Assembly (NCBI RefSeq): GCF_014211915.1
Contig: NZ_CP060040.1
Location: forward strand, 1,054,001 to 1,118,000
Source of the DNA: Burkholderia cenocepacia
GTDB taxonomy: Bacteria; Pseudomonadota; Gammaproteobacteria; Burkholderiales; Burkholderiaceae
DNA: 64,000 bases
Direction of reading: 5' to 3'
In this document: in pieces, positions 26,748 to 33,655 of the stretch
Layout: the number at the start of each line of letters is the position of its first letter
Numbering within the stretch: position 1 is the stretch's first letter
Translations under genes and position numbers: made by a program
Notes under the pieces: model-generated
What the model was told of the DNA's origin: nothing
Seen by the model: only the letters and a program-made list of their open reading frames with translations
Databases searched by the model: none

Positions 26748-27168
26748 GCATGTCTCCTGATGAAACGTTGATCGAATCGCGATCCTACGCCCGACAATAT
26801 TCGCGTCACATCAGGGCAAGCGTAAGCAACCTTCCGCCCGAGCTCGATCCTGAAAGATGTTTTCCGTGCCGCGCAAACCGGCCCGCGCCATTCGGCTCGC
26901 CCGGCGACGCCACGTGCGGGCTCGTGCGCGCCGTCTGTGCCGATCGTTCCAAACGCGCGTTCATGCTGCGACGCACCAACGGAATCGTTTGCGGCACCCC
27001 CTGTTTTTCTCGCGAAACGCACTCAAGAAGCCGCCGCGCACGCCGTTACCCAGTGCATGGCGCGTCGCAGCAACCTGCTGCAACCGTCAGACAAAAACAC
27101 AAGGTCCGGCTCAGCCGGACCGGCGCCACCGCCGGCACGACGGTTATCTACGAGGATCAAGTTTCAAC
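26748..27168. promoter_or_regulatory. divergent intergenic region (binding protein / subtilisin)
   Basis: 421 bases with no supported gene. It must carry promoters for the minus-strand binding protein and the plus-strand protease. The segment 26765-26825 is the least GC-rich part. Open frames here lack ribosome sites and homology. No convincing operator, terminator or small RNA was seen. Confidence 0.35.
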
Positions 27169-28833
27169 ATGAGAGCCAAACGTTTCAATTTCGCGCTGGC
27201 GCGCCCCGCACATGCGCGCATGCTCGCCGGCATGCTGTCCGCAGCCGCCCTCCTGCCCCTCGCCGGTTGCGGCGGAGGCGGCGGCGACGGCAGCAACCCG
27301 TCTTCGTCCAACGCATCGCCCGCACCGACACCCGCCCCGACGCCGGCTCCCACGCCCGCGCCCGCCCCGACCACCCCGCCCGCGTCGTCCGGCGGCAATG
27401 CATGCACGTCGCAGCAGGCCGCCGTGCAGATGGCCGCGCAGACCGCGCCGGCCGAGCCGCCGGTCGATCACCTCATCGTCAAGCTGAAAACGCTGACGGC
27501 CACGCGCGCGATGGCGGCCATCGACAACGGCTCGCGATTCGACGCGGTGATCCAGCGCGCGATGACGCGCTGGACAGCGCCGGTGACCGGCAGCGCACGC
27601 GCGTACGCGAGCACGGTCGCGCAAACGCCGGTGAACGTGCAGGTCGAGCGCACGATCTCGAACGGCGCGGCCGTGCTGTCGCTCGGCCAGCGCATGGACG
27701 CCGCCGATGCCGCCGCGCTCGCGCAGGCGTTCGCGGCGGACAGCGACGTGGACTACGCGGAACCGGATCACCCGATGCAGATCCGCGACACGCCGAGCGA
27801 CCCGCTCTACAGCCAGCAGTGGTACCTGTCCGACCCGGCCGCCGGCATCGACCTGCCGCCCGCCTGGAACGTGACCAAAGGTTCGCCGACCGTCGTCACG
27901 GCCGTGCTCGACACCGGCTACCGGCCGCACGGCGACCTCGTCGGCAATCTGATCCAGCAAGGCTACAGCTTCATCAGCAACGTCAACACCAGCAACAACG
28001 GCCTGACGCGCGGCCCGGACGCCACCGATCCGGGCGACTGGGTCACGCAGCAGGAACTCGACAACGCCAACGGCCCGTACTATCACTGCGCCAGCCAGCC
28101 GAGCAACAGCAGCTGGCACGGCACGCGCGTGATGGGCGTGATCGGCGCGACCGCCAACAACGGCACCGGCGTCGCCGGCGTCTCGTGGCTCAGCCGGATC
28201 CTGCCGGTGCGCGTGCTCGGCAAGTGCGGCGGCGTGACGAGCGACATCGCCGACGGCATGCGCTGGGCAGCCGGCATTCCCGTCAATGGCGTGCCGAACA
28301 ATCCGAACCCCGCGAAGATCATCAACCTGAGCCTCGGCGGGGTCGGCGCATGCAGCACGACGTTCCAGCAGGCGATCGACGACGTGACCGCGAAAGGCGT
28401 GACCGTGGTCGTCGCGGCCGGCAACGACGGCCTGTCGACCGGGCTCGACCAACCCGCGAACTGCCGCGGCGTGATCACCGTCGGCGCGACCGACGCGACG
28501 GGCCGACGCGCATCGTTCAGCAACTTCGGCGCCGATGTCGCGCTGAGCGCACCGGGCGTCAACGTCCTGTCGACGTCGAACACCGGCACGACGACGCCGG
28601 GCTCGGACACCTATGGCCCCGCGAACGGCACCAGCCTCGCGGCGCCCCAGGTGACGGGCGTCGCCGCGCTGATGTTGTCGGTGAACGGCAACCTCACGCC
28701 CGCGCAGATCCTGCAGAAGCTGCAAGGCGGCACGCGCGCGGCGAAGCTGGCCGCCGGCACGTCGTGCACCGCGCTGCCGGCAGGCTCGGGCATCCTCGAT
28801 GCGGGGGCCGCCGTCGCGACCGCGAACCAGTAA
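27169..28833 (+). CDS. lipoprotein-type subtilisin-like serine protease (S8)
   Basis: 554 aa from ATG 27169 (GAGGA upstream). A lipobox (LLPLAGC) follows the signal peptide, then a Gly run and a Pro/Ala/Thr linker built from TPAP repeats (residues ~50-70). A propeptide-like region follows, then the peptidase S8 domain with Asp248 (VLDTGYRPHGD), His317 (SSWHGTRVMGV) and Ser489 (NGTSLAAPQ). This matches the secreted or surface serine proteases of Burkholderia. The C-terminal region is short, with no autotransporter or prepilin domain. It stands alone, and the mgtA leader begins about 135 bases later. Confidence 0.93.
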   Translation: MRAKRFNFALARPAHARMLAGMLSAAALLPLAGCGGGGGDGSNPSSSNASPAPTPAPTPAPTPAPAPTTPPASSGGNACTSQQAAVQMAAQTAPAEPPVDHLIVKLKTLTATRAMAAIDNGSRFDAVIQRAMTRWTAPVTGSARAYASTVAQTPVNVQVERTISNGAAVLSLGQRMDAADAAALAQAFAADSDVDYAEPDHPMQIRDTPSDPLYSQQWYLSDPAAGIDLPPAWNVTKGSPTVVTAVLDTGYRPHGDLVGNLIQQGYSFISNVNTSNNGLTRGPDATDPGDWVTQQELDNANGPYYHCASQPSNSSWHGTRVMGVIGATANNGTGVAGVSWLSRILPVRVLGKCGGVTSDIADGMRWAAGIPVNGVPNNPNPAKIINLSLGGVGACSTTFQQAIDDVTAKGVTVVVAAGNDGLSTGLDQPANCRGVITVGATDATGRRASFSNFGADVALSAPGVNVLSTSNTGTTTPGSDTYGPANGTSLAAPQVTGVAALMLSVNGNLTPAQILQKLQGGTRAAKLAAGTSCTALPAGSGILDAGAAVATANQ

Positions 28834-28968
28834 CCGGAACCTCGTTCGACGCGGCCGCGCCTCTGCCGACATCGCAGGCGCGCGGCCGTTTCATGACGGG
28901 CTATCGAACGCGACTGCACACGCGCGCCGCCTCGATCACGCATCTCGAAATAACGCCTGACAAAAGGG

Positions 28969-28999
28969 TTGACGCTTCGCACAGCGAGCCATTACCATC
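28969..28999 (+). promoter_or_regulatory. candidate sigma70-type promoter for the mgtA leader
   Basis: TTGACG (28969-28974) followed after 19 bases by TACCAT (28994-28999), or after 17 by TTACCA. The -35 matches 5 of 6 consensus positions; the -10 is weak. It lies just upstream of a short reading frame and a structured leader that run into mgtA, giving a 5' region of about 540 bases. Confidence 0.45.
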
Positions 29000-29015
29000 G
29001 CCCCCGTCTAGTTAC

Positions 29016-29081
29016 ATGGAGTGTTCTGTGAACACCGATGCGAGTTGTAGTTGGTCCCTGGCCAACTTGACTGCTGCCTGA
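29016..29081 (+). CDS. putative leader peptide upstream of mgtA
   Basis: 21 codons from ATG 29016, or 17 from GTG 29028, which has TGGAGTG in front of it and is the better start. The peptide ends ASCSWSLANLTAA. Codons AGT, TGT, TCC, TTG and ACT are rare in this genome, so the bases rather than the peptide may be constrained. Within the frame, AGTTGG (29049-29054) pairs perfectly with CCAACT (29062-29067). This resembles a translated attenuator like mgtL of Salmonella in principle, but the sequence is unrelated, and I do not recognise the peptide. Confidence 0.4.
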   Translation: MECSVNTDASCSWSLANLTAA

Positions 29082-29342
29082 GGAAAACGCGCAGAGCCTC
29101 GTCTTCTGCCGCATCCCGGGAAGCAGGATGCGGCGCCCTTCCGGCCTGACCACGGGCCAGATCTCCCGCCGAATTTTCGATGTTGTCGAATGCACGCGAC
29201 GCGCCGTCGCGCGTGTGCGTTCGTGTTGCGCGCGGCGCCAGCCGCGTGCACTCTCCGTTCGCGTGCCGTCCGGCCGCGCGCCTCGTTGCGCGCGCCGCCG
29301 CCGATCGCCCGCGCCGATTCTCCGCAACCGACAGGAGTGCAG
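29082..29342 (+). promoter_or_regulatory. structured 5' leader of mgtA
   Basis: Non-coding stretch between the leader frame and the next small gene. A perfect 9-bp hairpin, GCCGCATCC paired with GGATGCGGC around a 9-base loop, spans 29108-29134, with no T run after it. No match to the ykoK M-box or yybP-ykoY classes was recognised. Downstream bases are GC- and C-rich, which would suit Rho-dependent control, but this is inference. Confidence 0.4.
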
Positions 29343-29501
29343 ATGAACTCAGACGACAGTAGTCGATTACCGCTCGCCGGTGCGACGCTGCGCATCGACA
29401 CGCCGTGCGCATTCTGCGCGCCGGCGAGCGTTCCCGCCTTTACCGATCCACAGCCGATCGCGCCTGACGCGACGCGGCGGGGAGCGTTCGTGCGTCGATG
29501 A
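29343..29501 (+). CDS. small protein upstream of mgtA, unknown function
   Basis: 52 aa from ATG 29343, preceded by ACAGGAGTGCAG, a strong ribosome site. The sequence begins MNSDDSSRLPLAGATLRID and contains a CAFC motif. There is no membrane segment or signal. The stop lies 47 bases before the mgtA start, so it is either a small protein co-expressed with mgtA or a second regulatory frame. The strong ribosome site is the main support; no family was recognised. Confidence 0.45.
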   Translation: MNSDDSSRLPLAGATLRIDTPCAFCAPASVPAFTDPQPIAPDATRRGAFVRR

Positions 29502-29548
29502 CGTCACGGCCGCTCCCCGCCCGCCGCCTCGTGCGCAAGGAGCGACTC

Positions 29549-32314
29549 ATGACGACACGACACAACACCTCGCACAAGAAACAGCGCGGCTTCATCAAGG
29601 CCGGCGCCGGCCAGCAGAACGACCCGCGCATCATGCGCGCCGCCCAGGAAGCGGCCCGCCCGCTCGAAGACACGCTGAAGTCGCTGCACACCAGCACGCG
29701 CGGCCTCACCTACGACCAGGCAGCCGGCCGCCTGCAGCACGACGGCCCGAACGAAATCGCGCACGACAAGCCGCCGCACTGGACCCGCCAGTTGCTGCTG
29801 TCGTTCCACAACCCGTTCGTCTACGTGCTGCTGGTGCTGGCCGCCATCAGCTTCTTCACCGACGTCTACTTCGCGGCGCCCGACGATCGCGACTACGTCG
29901 GCATGACGATCCTGCTGACGATGGTCACGATCAGCGCGCTGCTGCGCTTCGTGCAGGAATTCCGGTCGCTGCGCGCGGCCGAGAAGCTCAAGGCGATGGT
30001 CCGCACGACCGCGACCGTGCAGCGCGCCATGACCGACACGTCGGAACCGACGCGCCGCGAGGTGCCGATGCGCGAAGTCGTGACCGGCGACATCGTGCAT
30101 CTTTCCGCCGGCGACATGATCCCCGCCGACGTGCGGCTGCTCGCGTCGCGCGACCTGTTCATCAGCCAGGCCGTGCTGACCGGCGAGGCGCTGCCCGTCG
30201 AGAAGTACGACACGCTCGGCGCGGTGGCCGGCAAATCCGCGGGCACGCACGCGGCCGGCGCGGCCAACGGCGCACCGGCATCGCTGCTCGATCTCGAGAA
30301 CGTCTGCTTCATGGGCACCAACGTCGTCAGCGGCACGGCGACGGCCGTCGTCGTCGCGACCGGCGAAGACACGTACTTCGGCTCGCTCGCGCGCAACGTC
30401 GTGAGCCACAAGCGCATCGAGACGAGCTTCGACCGCGGTGTCGCGAGCGTCAGCTGGCTGCTGATCAAGTTCATGTTCGTGATGGTGCCGATCGTGTTCA
30501 TGATCAACGGCCTCACCAAGGGCGACTGGCTGAGCGCACTCACGTTCGCGCTCGCGGTGGCCGTGGGCCTCACGCCCGAGATGCTGCCGATGATCGTCAG
30601 CGCGAACCTTGCGCGCGGCGCGGTCGCGATGGCGCGCCGCAAGGTGGTCGTCAAGCGGCTGAACTCGGTGCAGAACTTCGGCGCGATGGATGTGCTGTGT
30701 ACCGACAAGACCGGCACGCTCACGCAGGACAAGATCATCCTCGAACACCACCTCGACCTGTCCGGTCACAAGAACGAGGACATCCTGCGGCTCGGCTGGC
30801 TGAACAGCTTCCACCAGAGCGGCCAGAAGAACCTGATCGACATCGCGGTCGTCGCGCGCGCCGACGAGATCGGCGAACGCGTGAAGCCGCAGGGCTACAA
30901 GAAGATCGACGAACTGCCGTTCGACTTCGTGCGGCGCCGTCTGTCGGTCGTCGTCGAGGATACGCGCGGCACGCACCTGCTGATCTGCAAGGGCGCGGTC
31001 GAGGAAATGCTGGCCGTCTCCAGGCATGTGCAGGATGAGGACGGCGTGCGCCCGCTCGACTTCGTGGCCCGCAAGCGGCTGCTCGAACAGGCCACCGCGT
31101 ACAACGAGGACGGGTTCCGCGTGCTCGTGCTCGCCACGCGCACGATCCCGCGCGGCGAAGAACGCGCGCAATATCGCACCGCCGACGAACACGATCTCGT
31201 CGTGCGCGGCTTCCTGACCTTCCTCGATCCGCCGAAGGAATCGGCCGCGCCGGCGCTCGCCGCGCTGCGCGAGAACGGCGTCGCGGTGAAGGTGCTGACG
31301 GGCGACAACCCGACCGTCACGATGAAGGTGTGCCGCCAGGTCGGCCTCGAACCCGGCAAGCCGATGCTCGGTACGGAAATCGAAGCGCTCGACGATGCGA
31401 CGCTCGCGCAGGTGGTCGAACGCACGACCGTGTTCGCGAAGCTCACGCCGCTGCAGAAGGCGCGCATCGTCAAGGCGCTGCAGGCGAACGGCCACACGGT
31501 CGGCTTCCTCGGCGACGGCATCAACGACGCGCCGGCGCTGCGCGACGCGGACGTCGGCATCTCGGTCGACAGCGGCGCCGACATCGCGAAGGAAACCGCC
31601 GACATCATCCTGCTCGAAAAGAGCCTGATGGTGCTGGAGGAAGGCGTGATCAAGGGCCGCGAGACGTTCGGCAACATCCTGAAGTACCTGAACATGACGG
31701 CCAGCTCGAACTTCGGCAACGTGTTCTCGGTGCTGGTCGCCAGCGCGTTCCTGCCGTGGGAGCCGATGCTCGCGACGCAACTGCTCGTGCTGAATCTGAT
31801 CTACGACACGTCGCAGATGCTGCTGCCGTGGGACAAGATGGACCCCGAGTTCCTGAAGAAGCCGCGCAAGTGGGAAGCCGGCAACATCAGCCGCTTCATG
31901 CTGTGGGTCGGGCCGACGTCGTCGGTGTTCGACATCACGACGTACATCCTGATGTGGACCGTGTTCGGTGCGGGCGCGCTGTATCACCTGAACGGCGGCG
32001 CGAGCGGCCAGATCGTGATGAACTCGGGCTGGTTCATCGAGAGCCTCGTGTCGCAGACGCTCGTCGTGCATCTGCTGCGCACGCAGAAGATCCCGTTCCT
32101 GCAGAGCACGGCGTCGCTGCCGGTGCTGCTGTCGACCTTCACCGCGATCGCGATCGGCTGCTGGCTGCCGTTCTCGCCGTTCGCGGAGGCGATCGGCTTC
32201 ATGCACCTGCCGGGCACCTACTGGCTGTGGCTCGCCGCGACGATGGTCGGCTACATCGTGCTTGCGCAGATCGTCAAGACGATCTACGTGCGCCGCTACA
32301 AGCAATGGTTCTGA
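29549..32314 (+). CDS. mgtA: magnesium-transporting P-type ATPase MgtA
   Basis: 921 aa P-type ATPase of class IIIB that imports Mg2+ across the inner membrane. Features in order: an N-terminal cytoplasmic region; helices 1-2 (LLLSFHNPFVYVLLVLAA); the actuator loop with LTGEALPVEKYD; the phosphorylation site Asp386 in CTDKTGTLTQDK; the hinge GDGINDAPALRDADVGISVD; and six C-terminal helices with WEPMLATQLLVLNLIYD. AAGGAG lies 7 bases before ATG 29549; the frame runs 17 codons further upstream without homology. It is monocistronic, with a terminator 80 bases after the stop. The long leader suggests post-transcriptional control. Confidence 0.95.
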   Translation: MTTRHNTSHKKQRGFIKAGAGQQNDPRIMRAAQEAARPLEDTLKSLHTSTRGLTYDQAAGRLQHDGPNEIAHDKPPHWTRQLLLSFHNPFVYVLLVLAAISFFTDVYFAAPDDRDYVGMTILLTMVTISALLRFVQEFRSLRAAEKLKAMVRTTATVQRAMTDTSEPTRREVPMREVVTGDIVHLSAGDMIPADVRLLASRDLFISQAVLTGEALPVEKYDTLGAVAGKSAGTHAAGAANGAPASLLDLENVCFMGTNVVSGTATAVVVATGEDTYFGSLARNVVSHKRIETSFDRGVASVSWLLIKFMFVMVPIVFMINGLTKGDWLSALTFALAVAVGLTPEMLPMIVSANLARGAVAMARRKVVVKRLNSVQNFGAMDVLCTDKTGTLTQDKIILEHHLDLSGHKNEDILRLGWLNSFHQSGQKNLIDIAVVARADEIGERVKPQGYKKIDELPFDFVRRRLSVVVEDTRGTHLLICKGAVEEMLAVSRHVQDEDGVRPLDFVARKRLLEQATAYNEDGFRVLVLATRTIPRGEERAQYRTADEHDLVVRGFLTFLDPPKESAAPALAALRENGVAVKVLTGDNPTVTMKVCRQVGLEPGKPMLGTEIEALDDATLAQVVERTTVFAKLTPLQKARIVKALQANGHTVGFLGDGINDAPALRDADVGISVDSGADIAKETADIILLEKSLMVLEEGVIKGRETFGNILKYLNMTASSNFGNVFSVLVASAFLPWEPMLATQLLVLNLIYDTSQMLLPWDKMDPEFLKKPRKWEAGNISRFMLWVGPTSSVFDITTYILMWTVFGAGALYHLNGGASGQIVMNSGWFIESLVSQTLVVHLLRTQKIPFLQSTASLPVLLSTFTAIAIGCWLPFSPFAEAIGFMHLPGTYWLWLAATMVGYIVLAQIVKTIYVRRYKQWF

Positions 32315-32393
32315 TGGCGCGAGGATGACGATGCGCCGGCCCGTGCGCGACCCGCACGGGCCGAACGATCCGATCTGCCATCGTTCGGTGATG

Positions 32394-32420
32394 AACAGGC
32401 CGCATCCGCGGCCTGTTTTT
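32394..32420. terminator. Rho-independent terminator after mgtA
   Basis: A 10-bp stem (AACAGGCCGC with GCGGCCTGTT), a 4-base loop (ATCC) and a TTTTT tail. Two further inverted repeats without T runs lie just upstream (32339-32361 and 32362-32387). It may also serve the convergent regulator at 32424. Confidence 0.85.
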
Positions 32421-32423
32421 CAT

Positions 32424-32708
32424 TCATTGGGCATCGTTCGCACCGAACAGCTGCGCGCACACCGCGCGCCCTTCGTCGGTCAGCGCGGCGCTGCCGGTAC
32501 CGTCCTCGTTCAGCGTCGTCGCGCTCAGGCCGGCGGCGTCGAGTTGCGTCAGCACGCGGCGCAGCGTGCTCATCGGCAGTTGCGCGCGCTTCGCGATCTT
32601 CGGCAGCGACCACGTCTTGCCGGCCGGATCGCTGGCGGCTTCGTTCAGCGTCGCGAGCGTGGCGACGAGTGCGGGATCGAGCGGGGATTCGTCGGTGTCG
32701 GAAGTCAT
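32424..32708 (-). CDS. small winged-helix DNA-binding protein
   Basis: 94 aa from ATG 32708. The region WSLPKIAKRAQLPMSTLRRVLTQLDAAGL is split into a recognition helix and wing typical of MarR/IclR-like winged helices, and a short C-terminal wing follows (GSAALTDEGRAV). It has no effector domain. The upstream frame could be longer, but homology-like sequence begins here and no strong ribosome site is visible. It lies 71 bases downstream of a LysR gene on the same strand. Likely a transcription factor with unknown targets. Confidence 0.75.
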   Translation of the reverse strand: MTSDTDESPLDPALVATLATLNEAASDPAGKTWSLPKIAKRAQLPMSTLRRVLTQLDAAGLSATTLNEDGTGSAALTDEGRAVCAQLFGANDAQ

Positions 32709-32779
32709 CGGTTCGGGTTCGTCGGCCGGCGTCGCACCGGCATGCAGGGAGAAAACGCTCGCGGACACTATACGCCGCG

Positions 32780-33655
32780 TCACGCACCCTTGAGCGCGCT
32801 GCGCATGAACGACACGAAACGCGCGGTGACGGGATCGTCGCGATCGGACAGCCATGCGAGCCCCACGCGCCACTTCGCGTCACGGCCGTCGAGCGGCAGC
32901 ACCGTCGCGTCGCGCAGCAGGTACCGCGCGCTCGACGGGATGAACGCGACGCCGACGCCGGCCGCGACCGAGGTCAGCACCGACTGCACGTCTTCCGCCT
33001 GCTGCATCACGTGCGGCACGAAACGGCGCTCGACGCACCATCGGTCGATCTGCGCGGCCAGCCCCGGGCCGCGCGCACGCTGCAGTGCGATGAAGCCGAT
33101 CTCGTTGAGCGCGTCGAGGTTGGCCGGCACGCGCTTGAAGCCGAGATGCGGCGGCACGGCGAGCGCGAGCGCTTCGTCGGTCACCTTGAACGACGACAAG
33201 CCGTCGTCGGCGGGCAGGCGCAGGAAACCGGCGTCGAGCTTGCCGGCACGCAGCCGACGCGTCTGTTCGGACGACGACAGGTCGCTCAGCGTCACCGCGA
33301 TACCCGGATTGCAACGGCGGAATTCGGCGATCAGCTTCGGCACGAGCGTCAGCACGGACAGGCAGATGCCGAGCCGCAAATGCCCGCGCTGGCCACTGGT
33401 CGCTTCCCGTGCACGCGCCAGGATTTCGTCGGCATCGCGCACGAGCGCCTGCGCGTCCGGCAGGAAGCGTTCGCCGAACGGCGTCAGCTCCGCGCCATGC
33501 CGGCCGCGCTCGAACAGCTTGCCGCCGAGGCTTGCTTCCAGCGCGCCGATCTGCTTGCTGAGCGCAGGCTGGCTCATGTGCAGCGCATCGGCCGCGCGGC
33601 TGAAATGGCACAGCTCGGTGACCGTCAGGAACGTGCGCAGCAGTTTCAGTTCCAT
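32780..33655 (-). CDS. LysR-family transcriptional regulator
   Basis: 291 aa. The N-terminal winged helix begins MELKLLRTFLTVTEL and contains FSRAADALHMSQPALSKQIGALE (recognition helix), followed by the standard LysR substrate-binding region (GHLRLGICLSVLTLVPKLI, with GVGVAFIPSSARYLL near the end). It resembles the subgroup controlling aromatic or efflux genes, but the effector is unknown. No divergent target gene with clear homology lies upstream; the next gene is 527 bases away. Confidence 0.93.
   Translation of the reverse strand: MELKLLRTFLTVTELCHFSRAADALHMSQPALSKQIGALEASLGGKLFERGRHGAELTPFGERFLPDAQALVRDADEILARAREATSGQRGHLRLGICLSVLTLVPKLIAEFRRCNPGIAVTLSDLSSSEQTRRLRAGKLDAGFLRLPADDGLSSFKVTDEALALAVPPHLGFKRVPANLDALNEIGFIALQRARGPGLAAQIDRWCVERRFVPHVMQQAEDVQSVLTSVAAGVGVAFIPSSARYLLRDATVLPLDGRDAKWRVGLAWLSDRDDPVTARFVSFMRSALKGA

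Follow-up and report, generated by a model that had tools for sequence, protein, structure and literature searches.

Leaders of magnesium transport genes

The closest described counterpart of the leader presented here is mgtL, which precedes mgtA in Escherichia coli and Salmonella; according to two reports, ribosomes fail in the leader frame at low Mg2+ and mgtA is transcribed (PMC11282234; PMC11552253). The Salmonella mgtCBR leader in turn carries two short frames in tandem, mgtM and mgtP (PMC3641672). The M-box (ykoK) and yybP-ykoY elements are, like the present leader, cis-acting RNAs that lie ahead of metal transport genes. In attenuators of the trp and leu type, rare control codons stand near the beginning of a short frame, and mutually exclusive hairpins follow it.

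The mgtA gene of Burkholderia cenocepacia follows a long leader which, judging from its sequence and that of its relatives, very probably acts as a translated cis-element controlling the genes behind it. The preferred explanation, held with moderate confidence as a whole, is that it is a translated attenuator which serves a Mg2+ regulon and is OFF once its first short frame, ORF1, has been completed. The leader lies in a stretch of 64,000 nucleotides (the window) and comprises the following features:

28969..28998, + strand: promoter-like site TTGACG-18-TACCAT (-35 box 28969-28974, -10 box 28993-28998), both boxes conserved across the Burkholderia alignment
29018..29021, + strand: ORF1 Shine-Dalgarno sequence GGAG, kept in Burkholderia copies
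29028..29081, + strand: ORF1, encoding the leader peptide VNTDASCSWSLANLTAA (then stop), GTG start, 17 codons, a conserved frame
29043..29051, + strand: AGT TGT AGT, with rare serine codons as candidate control codons, from codon counts
29050..29066, + strand: H1, hairpin within ORF1, GTTGGT/GCCAAC (29050-29055/29061-29066), from covariation
29078..29084, + strand: antiterminator 5' strand CTGAGGA over the ORF1 stop codon, from folding; weak in the window and strong in many relatives
29091..29109, + strand: H2, hairpin GCAGA/TCTGC nested in the antiterminator, from covariation
29107..29135, + strand: H3, hairpin TGCCGCATCC/GGATGCGGCG, exclusive with the antiterminator, whose 3' strand is 29114-29119; from folding and covariation
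29143..29158, + strand: H6, hairpin right after H3, from its stability against shuffles across loci
29333..29337, + strand: ORF2 Shine-Dalgarno sequence AGGAG, from sequence and alignment
29343..29501, + strand: ORF2, 52-aa frame MNSDDSSRLPLAGA...VRR (then stop), a conserved frame
29371..29430, + strand: H4, hairpin within ORF2, CGCTCGCCGG/CCGGCGAGCG, from folding, with covariation seen by eye
29476..29521, + strand: H5, 11-bp hairpin across the ORF2 stop, GGCGGGGAGCG/CGCTCCCCGCC, from folding, by eye; just 5' of the mgtA ribosome site
29537..29542, + strand: mgtA Shine-Dalgarno sequence AAGGAG, read in the sequence
29549..32314, + strand: mgtA, Mg2+-translocating P-type ATPase, 921 aa (TIGR01524)

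From 5' to 3' the order is ORF1 with H1 inside it, H2, H3, H6, ORF2 with H4 and H5, and mgtA, whose product scores 1276 bits against TIGR01524 (cut-off 611). An earlier note on this DNA had described the layout of a translated attenuator or Mg2+ sensor, and its elements are borne out. The promoter-like TTGACG that it reported has a TACCAT partner and forms the single sigma-70-like site in 28850-29650 (shuffles mean 0.0, sd 0.2); transcripts starting just past it would have a leader of about 545 bases. The frame of 17-21 codons with atypical codons is the AGT-rich ORF1, from GTG 29028 to TGA 29081; the hairpin noted inside it (AGTTGG/CCAACT) is H1, which co-varies; the perfect 9-bp hairpin is present in H3 at 29108-29116/29126-29134; and the second frame of 52 aa with a strong ribosome site just before mgtA is ORF2, which is kept in relatives. 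Lack of conservation at related mgtA loci had been named as the outcome that would sink the idea, and both frames as well as the hairpins are kept there. The interpretation is supported by these conserved frames and hairpins and by Mg2+-related downstream genes, with Mg2+ as the putative signal and a putative direction of control. Four features go beyond the earlier note: the antiterminator at the stop codon of ORF1, the spread of the element through the order, a second copy in the window's genome and the likeness of ORF2 to ORF1s of relatives.

Positions 28992-29144 show 91-100% identity in 52 of 59 mgtA-linked loci (the window's own counted) and 79-87% in the remaining seven, while the flanks drift. 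Conservation peaks from ORF1 to H3 and again at the start of ORF2, and is lower in between. By folding energy alone the ORF1 region does not stand out from shuffles (z -1.3), and the ORF2 region does (z -4.7). Upstream of the leader, a long frame at 26857-28833 resembles by eye a secreted subtilisin-like protease.

Like mgtL, the leader combines a short frame with a ribosome site before mgtA and two exclusive folds, and completion of the frame is expected to turn mgtA off. Unlike mgtL, it is found in a different order of bacteria, and the Burkholderiales ORF1 is rich in Ser and Cys, mostly starts with GTG and lacks an EPDP-type motif; there is no homology by Rfam, the sole route of sequence and structure comparison, and the antiterminator strand contains or closely follows the stop codon, a feature stated for the present leader only. 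It shares with mgtM/mgtP the arrangement of a long Mg2+-gene leader holding a pair of short frames but is set apart by description, with AGU codons here as against proline codons there and an ORF2 that adjoins mgtA here and in Pandoraea stands behind an intervening MgtC-like gene. M-box and yybP-ykoY differ in that neither matches a leader at E up to 1 and in that the present leader contains a conserved frame. The rare codons early in ORF1 and the exclusive hairpins that follow recall trp/leu-type attenuators, whereas H3 lacks a U-tract and the genes concerned serve ion uptake.

The earlier note saw no match to M-box, yybP-ykoY or mgtL, and this agrees with Rfam 15, in which no family at E up to 1 matches the window leader (27500-33500 searched) or the leaders of 32 other loci, mgtL being judged through Rfam only; the families compared include M-box, Mg_sensor and yybP-ykoY. 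Because there is no Rfam match and no EPDP-type motif, the leader is not classed with mgtL or mgtM/mgtP, and the best reading is that it belongs among the translated attenuators of Mg2+ transporters, mgtL-like in its working but unrelated. If so, the order of Burkholderia would have its own answer to a problem solved elsewhere by mgtL, mgtM/P and M-box, and this would be another independent invention of ribosome- or RNA-based Mg2+ control. No description of this leader was found in the open full texts searched. A set of 82 short 5'UTRs reported for B. cenocepacia J2315 in PMC5688073 may hold it.

A putative switch at the ORF1 stop codon

It is proposed that the distance ribosomes cover in ORF1 would set the output of mgtA and, at other loci, of further genes of Mg2+ homeostasis. 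In the OFF state a ribosome finishing ORF1 would cover the stop codon and hide the antiterminator strand, so that H3 could form and transcription would stop within the leader. In the ON state, which low Mg2+ is expected to bring about, elongation would stall or fail in the AGU-rich early part of ORF1 and leave the stop region free; the antiterminator would then form and block H3, and RNA polymerase could get to mgtA. ORF2 with its own hairpins may provide a second translated checkpoint. A switch between antiterminator and H3 that is driven by termination on ORF1 is likely, and low Mg2+ is rather probably the signal.

The antiterminator and H3 are mutually exclusive because the RNA at the ORF1 stop pairs with the 5' strand of H3. 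Folding from the stop codon to just past the H3 5' strand revealed by eye an outer helix between the two, enclosing H2, in 26 of 30 loci; it is absent in L056, L187, L190 and L196, and the script picked a wrong start codon or hairpin at some loci. Across 12 group representatives, with segments picked by eye from 23 loci, cognate pairing amounts to -125.5 kcal/mol as against -77.4 (sd 9.6) for permuted partners, and 0 of 20000 permutations were as good. Taken singly, seven of the 23 (the window, L055, L057, L071, L103, L107 and L187) had over 25 equally good shuffles in 500, the window's own antiterminator being weak with 99/500 shuffles equally good. The result recurs in 17 of 18 loci found later (L220 left out), where segments were fixed by the stop codon and model columns: cognate pairing reached -300.2 versus -248.4 (sd 12.0), again with 0/20000, and single loci were at or under 15/300 shuffles in 11 cases and above in six (worst L213, 69/300). 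A first automatic test on the 18 new loci, in which the automatic search frequently settled on the hairpin behind H3, gave 670 of 20000 permutations as good.

A stop-codon base is paired in the antiterminator in 16 of the 17 later loci; the exception is L217, whose helix stops one base short of that codon. In Pandoraea the strand begins 9 bases past the first base of the stop codon, which is still beneath a terminating ribosome. Given this position, a terminating ribosome should mask the antiterminator in most members. The short frame overlaps mutually exclusive hairpins, as is expected of an attenuator. Another antiterminator candidate, the GATGCG in ORF1 (29037-29042), is a copy of the H3 3' strand that could pair with the H3 5' strand; it was rejected because L105 (GACGCA) and L107 (GACGCC) carry synonymous variants with no matching change in the H3 5' strand.

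Rare serine codons in ORF1

ORF1 has 21 codons if counted from an upstream ATG, yet several relatives lack that ATG while keeping the GTG and a GGAG-type ribosome site. The GTG start is present in all 69 Burkholderia copies (59 mgtA-linked loci, nine paralogues and L071, a diverged mgtA copy), and in L057 and L058 one extra base shifts the stop one codon earlier. An ORF1-type frame of 13-22 codons occurs in 41 of 41 loci in a survey that left out L196, L212 and L220, starting with GTG in 37, ATG in two and TTG in two.

The frame is marked by its serine codons, with AGT accounting for 88 of 162 across 39 ORF1s, as against 2.6% of 153 in five window genes, 0/47 in the window's mgtA and 0-8.7% in four mgtA genes or gene parts of relatives. 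Each ORF1 holds 4.2 serines on average, and serine runs recur, often as S-S-R; the SSR motif is found in 17 of the 39, spelled AGT AGT CGA in 10. These rare candidate control codons precede the switch, as they would in a leader attenuator. The early Pro/acidic motif of mgtL (EPDP) is not a feature of ORF1s, which have 47 acidic and 15 Pro among 429 early residues.

The same codons underlie a possible but unlikely alternative, amino-acid attenuation, in which the AGU-rich and often Cys-containing ORF1 would sense charged tRNA-Ser or tRNA-Cys, stalling at AGU would free the antiterminator, and the Mg2+ genes would be induced by generally slowed translation. The bias towards AGT and the serine runs fit this idea, and Salmonella mgtP, described as proline-sensing in PMC3641672, provides a precedent; however, none of the recurrent genes identified downstream belongs to serine or cysteine metabolism, and part of the AGU run sits in H1, where it may be kept for pairing. 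The preferred reading of ORF1 as a Mg2+-responsive frame opens the question whether rare-codon or serine-rich runs, beyond proline/acidic runs, render ribosomes Mg2+-sensitive.

Conserved hairpins

Comparison of related sequences supports the view that H1 and H2 are kept by compensating changes, and H3 less strongly so. In 33 sequences, 94.7% of the cells of H1, H2 and H3 pair, and there are 49 double-change cells compared with 21.6 (sd 4.7) in shuffles and 0-7 in slid controls, which weigh more than the shuffles because kinship among sequences inflates the latter. In the same set the pairs changed on both sides (6 vs 5.0) and further pair types (15 vs 16.3) are at shuffle level, and H3 has zero double changes. 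For H1 and H3 in 20 more divergent sequences there are 26 double-change cells versus 7.8 (sd 2.4), with slid controls at 1-6, and all five covariation measures lie above every one of 500 shuffles; three pairs of H3 have one double change each, every one in just one sequence. A helix GAGGA/TCTTC proposed by RNAalifold was replaced by H2, as L102 and L106 break it while H2 co-varies.

Sequence is also constrained beyond the needs of pairing, at GATGC, CTGCCGC and GCGG. This would suit a riboswitch, an improbable alternative in which Mg2+ or a different ligand would bind straight to the RNA, with ORF1 incidental or modulating, and Mg2+ is able to fold RNA. Against it, the ORF1 frame survives changes in length between 13 and 22 codons with its start and ribosome site kept, H1 lies within the frame, and the leaders are without an Rfam match.

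Candidate sites of transcription termination

H3 is not followed by a U-tract and the terminator scan makes no call there, so that the intrinsic terminator of a classical attenuator is not seen. H6, the hairpin right behind it, occupies a position that is over-stable across 39 loci, with a mean z of -1.37 versus -0.62 and -0.08 in controls and values below -1 in 25/39 loci versus 10/39 and 7/39; the z of the window's own H6 is just -0.6. Downstream, C exceeds G in 33 of 39 stretches as compared with 18 of 39 upstream, and this excess would suit Rho. The candidate termination sites are thus H3, H6 or a Rho-dependent site further down, and the terminator itself is something we infer.

The C-rich stretch and the conserved sequence in H3 might also be taken to favour control of the leader by a protein or small RNA (an RNA-binding repressor, Rho/NusG loading or an RNase site) with the hairpins as its target. 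This is quite improbable, as it leaves the stop-codon base pairing in 16/17 loci unexplained.

ORF2

ORF2 is found by rule in 64 of 69 Burkholderia copies, and is visible by eye in the DNA of the other five; a pattern search finds it in 16 of 21 Pandoraea mgtA loci. The codon-level selection check that had been suggested for the small frames was run on ORF2: over 53 distinct sequences, pN/pS is 0.41 in the first 14 columns and 0.90-0.94 beyond. The latter values would fit the view that ORF1 and ORF2 are merely small genes or chance frames with nothing regulatory about them, which is largely contradicted by the antiterminator tests and by the covariation seen within the frame, and which is extremely improbable.

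The N-terminus of ORF2 is akin to ORF1 in its D-D-S-S-R, and many copies have an acidic start. The window's ORF2 has 14-base in-phase blocks in common with ORF1 of L183, L185 and L205, and may therefore be derived from an ORF1 of this kind. A strand of H5 was considered for sequestering the mgtA ribosome site, and this is not conserved.

Distribution

In the genus, 63 of 65 genomes have a match to the leader DNA (E <= 1e-3), 59 of which (the window's own counted) have one match over nearly the whole query. The covariance search across Burkholderiaceae proposed earlier was carried out with a first model built from 20 Burkholderia sequences, and found the element in 91 of the family's 398 genomes and 4 of its 25 genera; one match, in genus g3 (L131), is false by inspection. 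A pattern scan of named genomes gave 50 stretches, from Burkholderia, Pandoraea, Paraburkholderia and one MAG labelled "Burkholderiales bacterium".

In the order, which we take to be Burkholderiales, a second model matched 16 of 399 genomes and a third 29 of 399 (23 of 158 genera, E <= 1e-3), one of the latter (L212) being judged false. In the class, the second model matched 5 of 274 genomes, namely the window's own and four at E > 5e-4, three of which were inspected and judged false; in the phylum, the third matched 2 of 200, both inside the order. Convincing matches outside the order are thus absent from fast-filter scans of the class (274 genomes) and phylum (200 genomes), in which misses are possible because of the filters. 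Besides L131 and L212, matches L192, L194, L195, L197, L198 and L200 were rejected by eye; this vetting left out L199, and L196 and L220 are doubtful.

The window's genome contains a second copy (G000:C2:1426520-1426659, E 2e-4) with the ORF1 VDTCSSCSSMPVQAGHAIAR (then stop) and an OprB porin downstream. Its antiterminator is matched by only 4 of 300 shuffles.

Genes behind the leader

Within about 1.5 kb downstream, 27 of 30 loci of the order have a recurrent gene: mgtA in 16, an MgtC-like gene in five, OprB in six and an ABC permease in three. Three loci carry two of these, with an MgtC-like gene before mgtA in two and OprB before mgtA in one, and L196, L208 and L212 have no recurrent gene in this range. 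The queries were taken from member loci, and L184 and L203 thus match themselves. MgtC-like genes are present in 24 of the 29 loci L102-L130, and the Pandoraea-type loci L109-L115 and L117-L130 all have mgtA (21/21) with an MgtC-like gene between it and the leader (21/21). The MgtC_SapB_C domain was scored in the L103 protein; no Pfam family matches the L184 protein, which is labelled MgtC-like from its resemblance and its position.

At the paralogue locus L062 (3476-6279), the only one with its genes scored, the leader with both frames is followed by a 2OG-Fe(II) oxygenase, a DUF47/PhoU-like gene and a Pit (PHO4) phosphate transporter. The oxygenase has no obvious Mg2+ connection. L067 also shows oxygenase-like and Pit-like frames by eye.

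The recurrent downstream genes point to Mg2+. By extension it may tentatively be suggested that the whole order senses Mg2+ starvation via a nascent-chain or codon signal (AGU-AGU-CGA / S-S-R), used twice, in tandem, in the mgtA leader, with a regulon including mgtA, MgtC-like proteins, OprB porins, a double-permease ABC importer and Pit. If this is true, the porins, the importer and Pit would be unrecognised parts of Mg2+ uptake, and the leader could serve as a tag that marks them as likely members of the Mg2+ regulon.

Some individual loci show further arrangements. In L103 (1230-3828) the leader is followed by a small MgtC-domain protein and then, by eye, by a PhoP/PhoQ-like response regulator and sensor kinase. 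In three loci from one distant family, L183 (91-261), L184 (2835-2992) and L186 (2829-2934), the leader has a yybP-ykoY Mn2+ riboswitch some 1.2 kb upstream of it in the same orientation. In L214 (1718-1966, reverse complement) a fragment of OprB separates the leader from mgtA, much as would be left if a former OprB-mgtA operon had shed the bulk of its porin.
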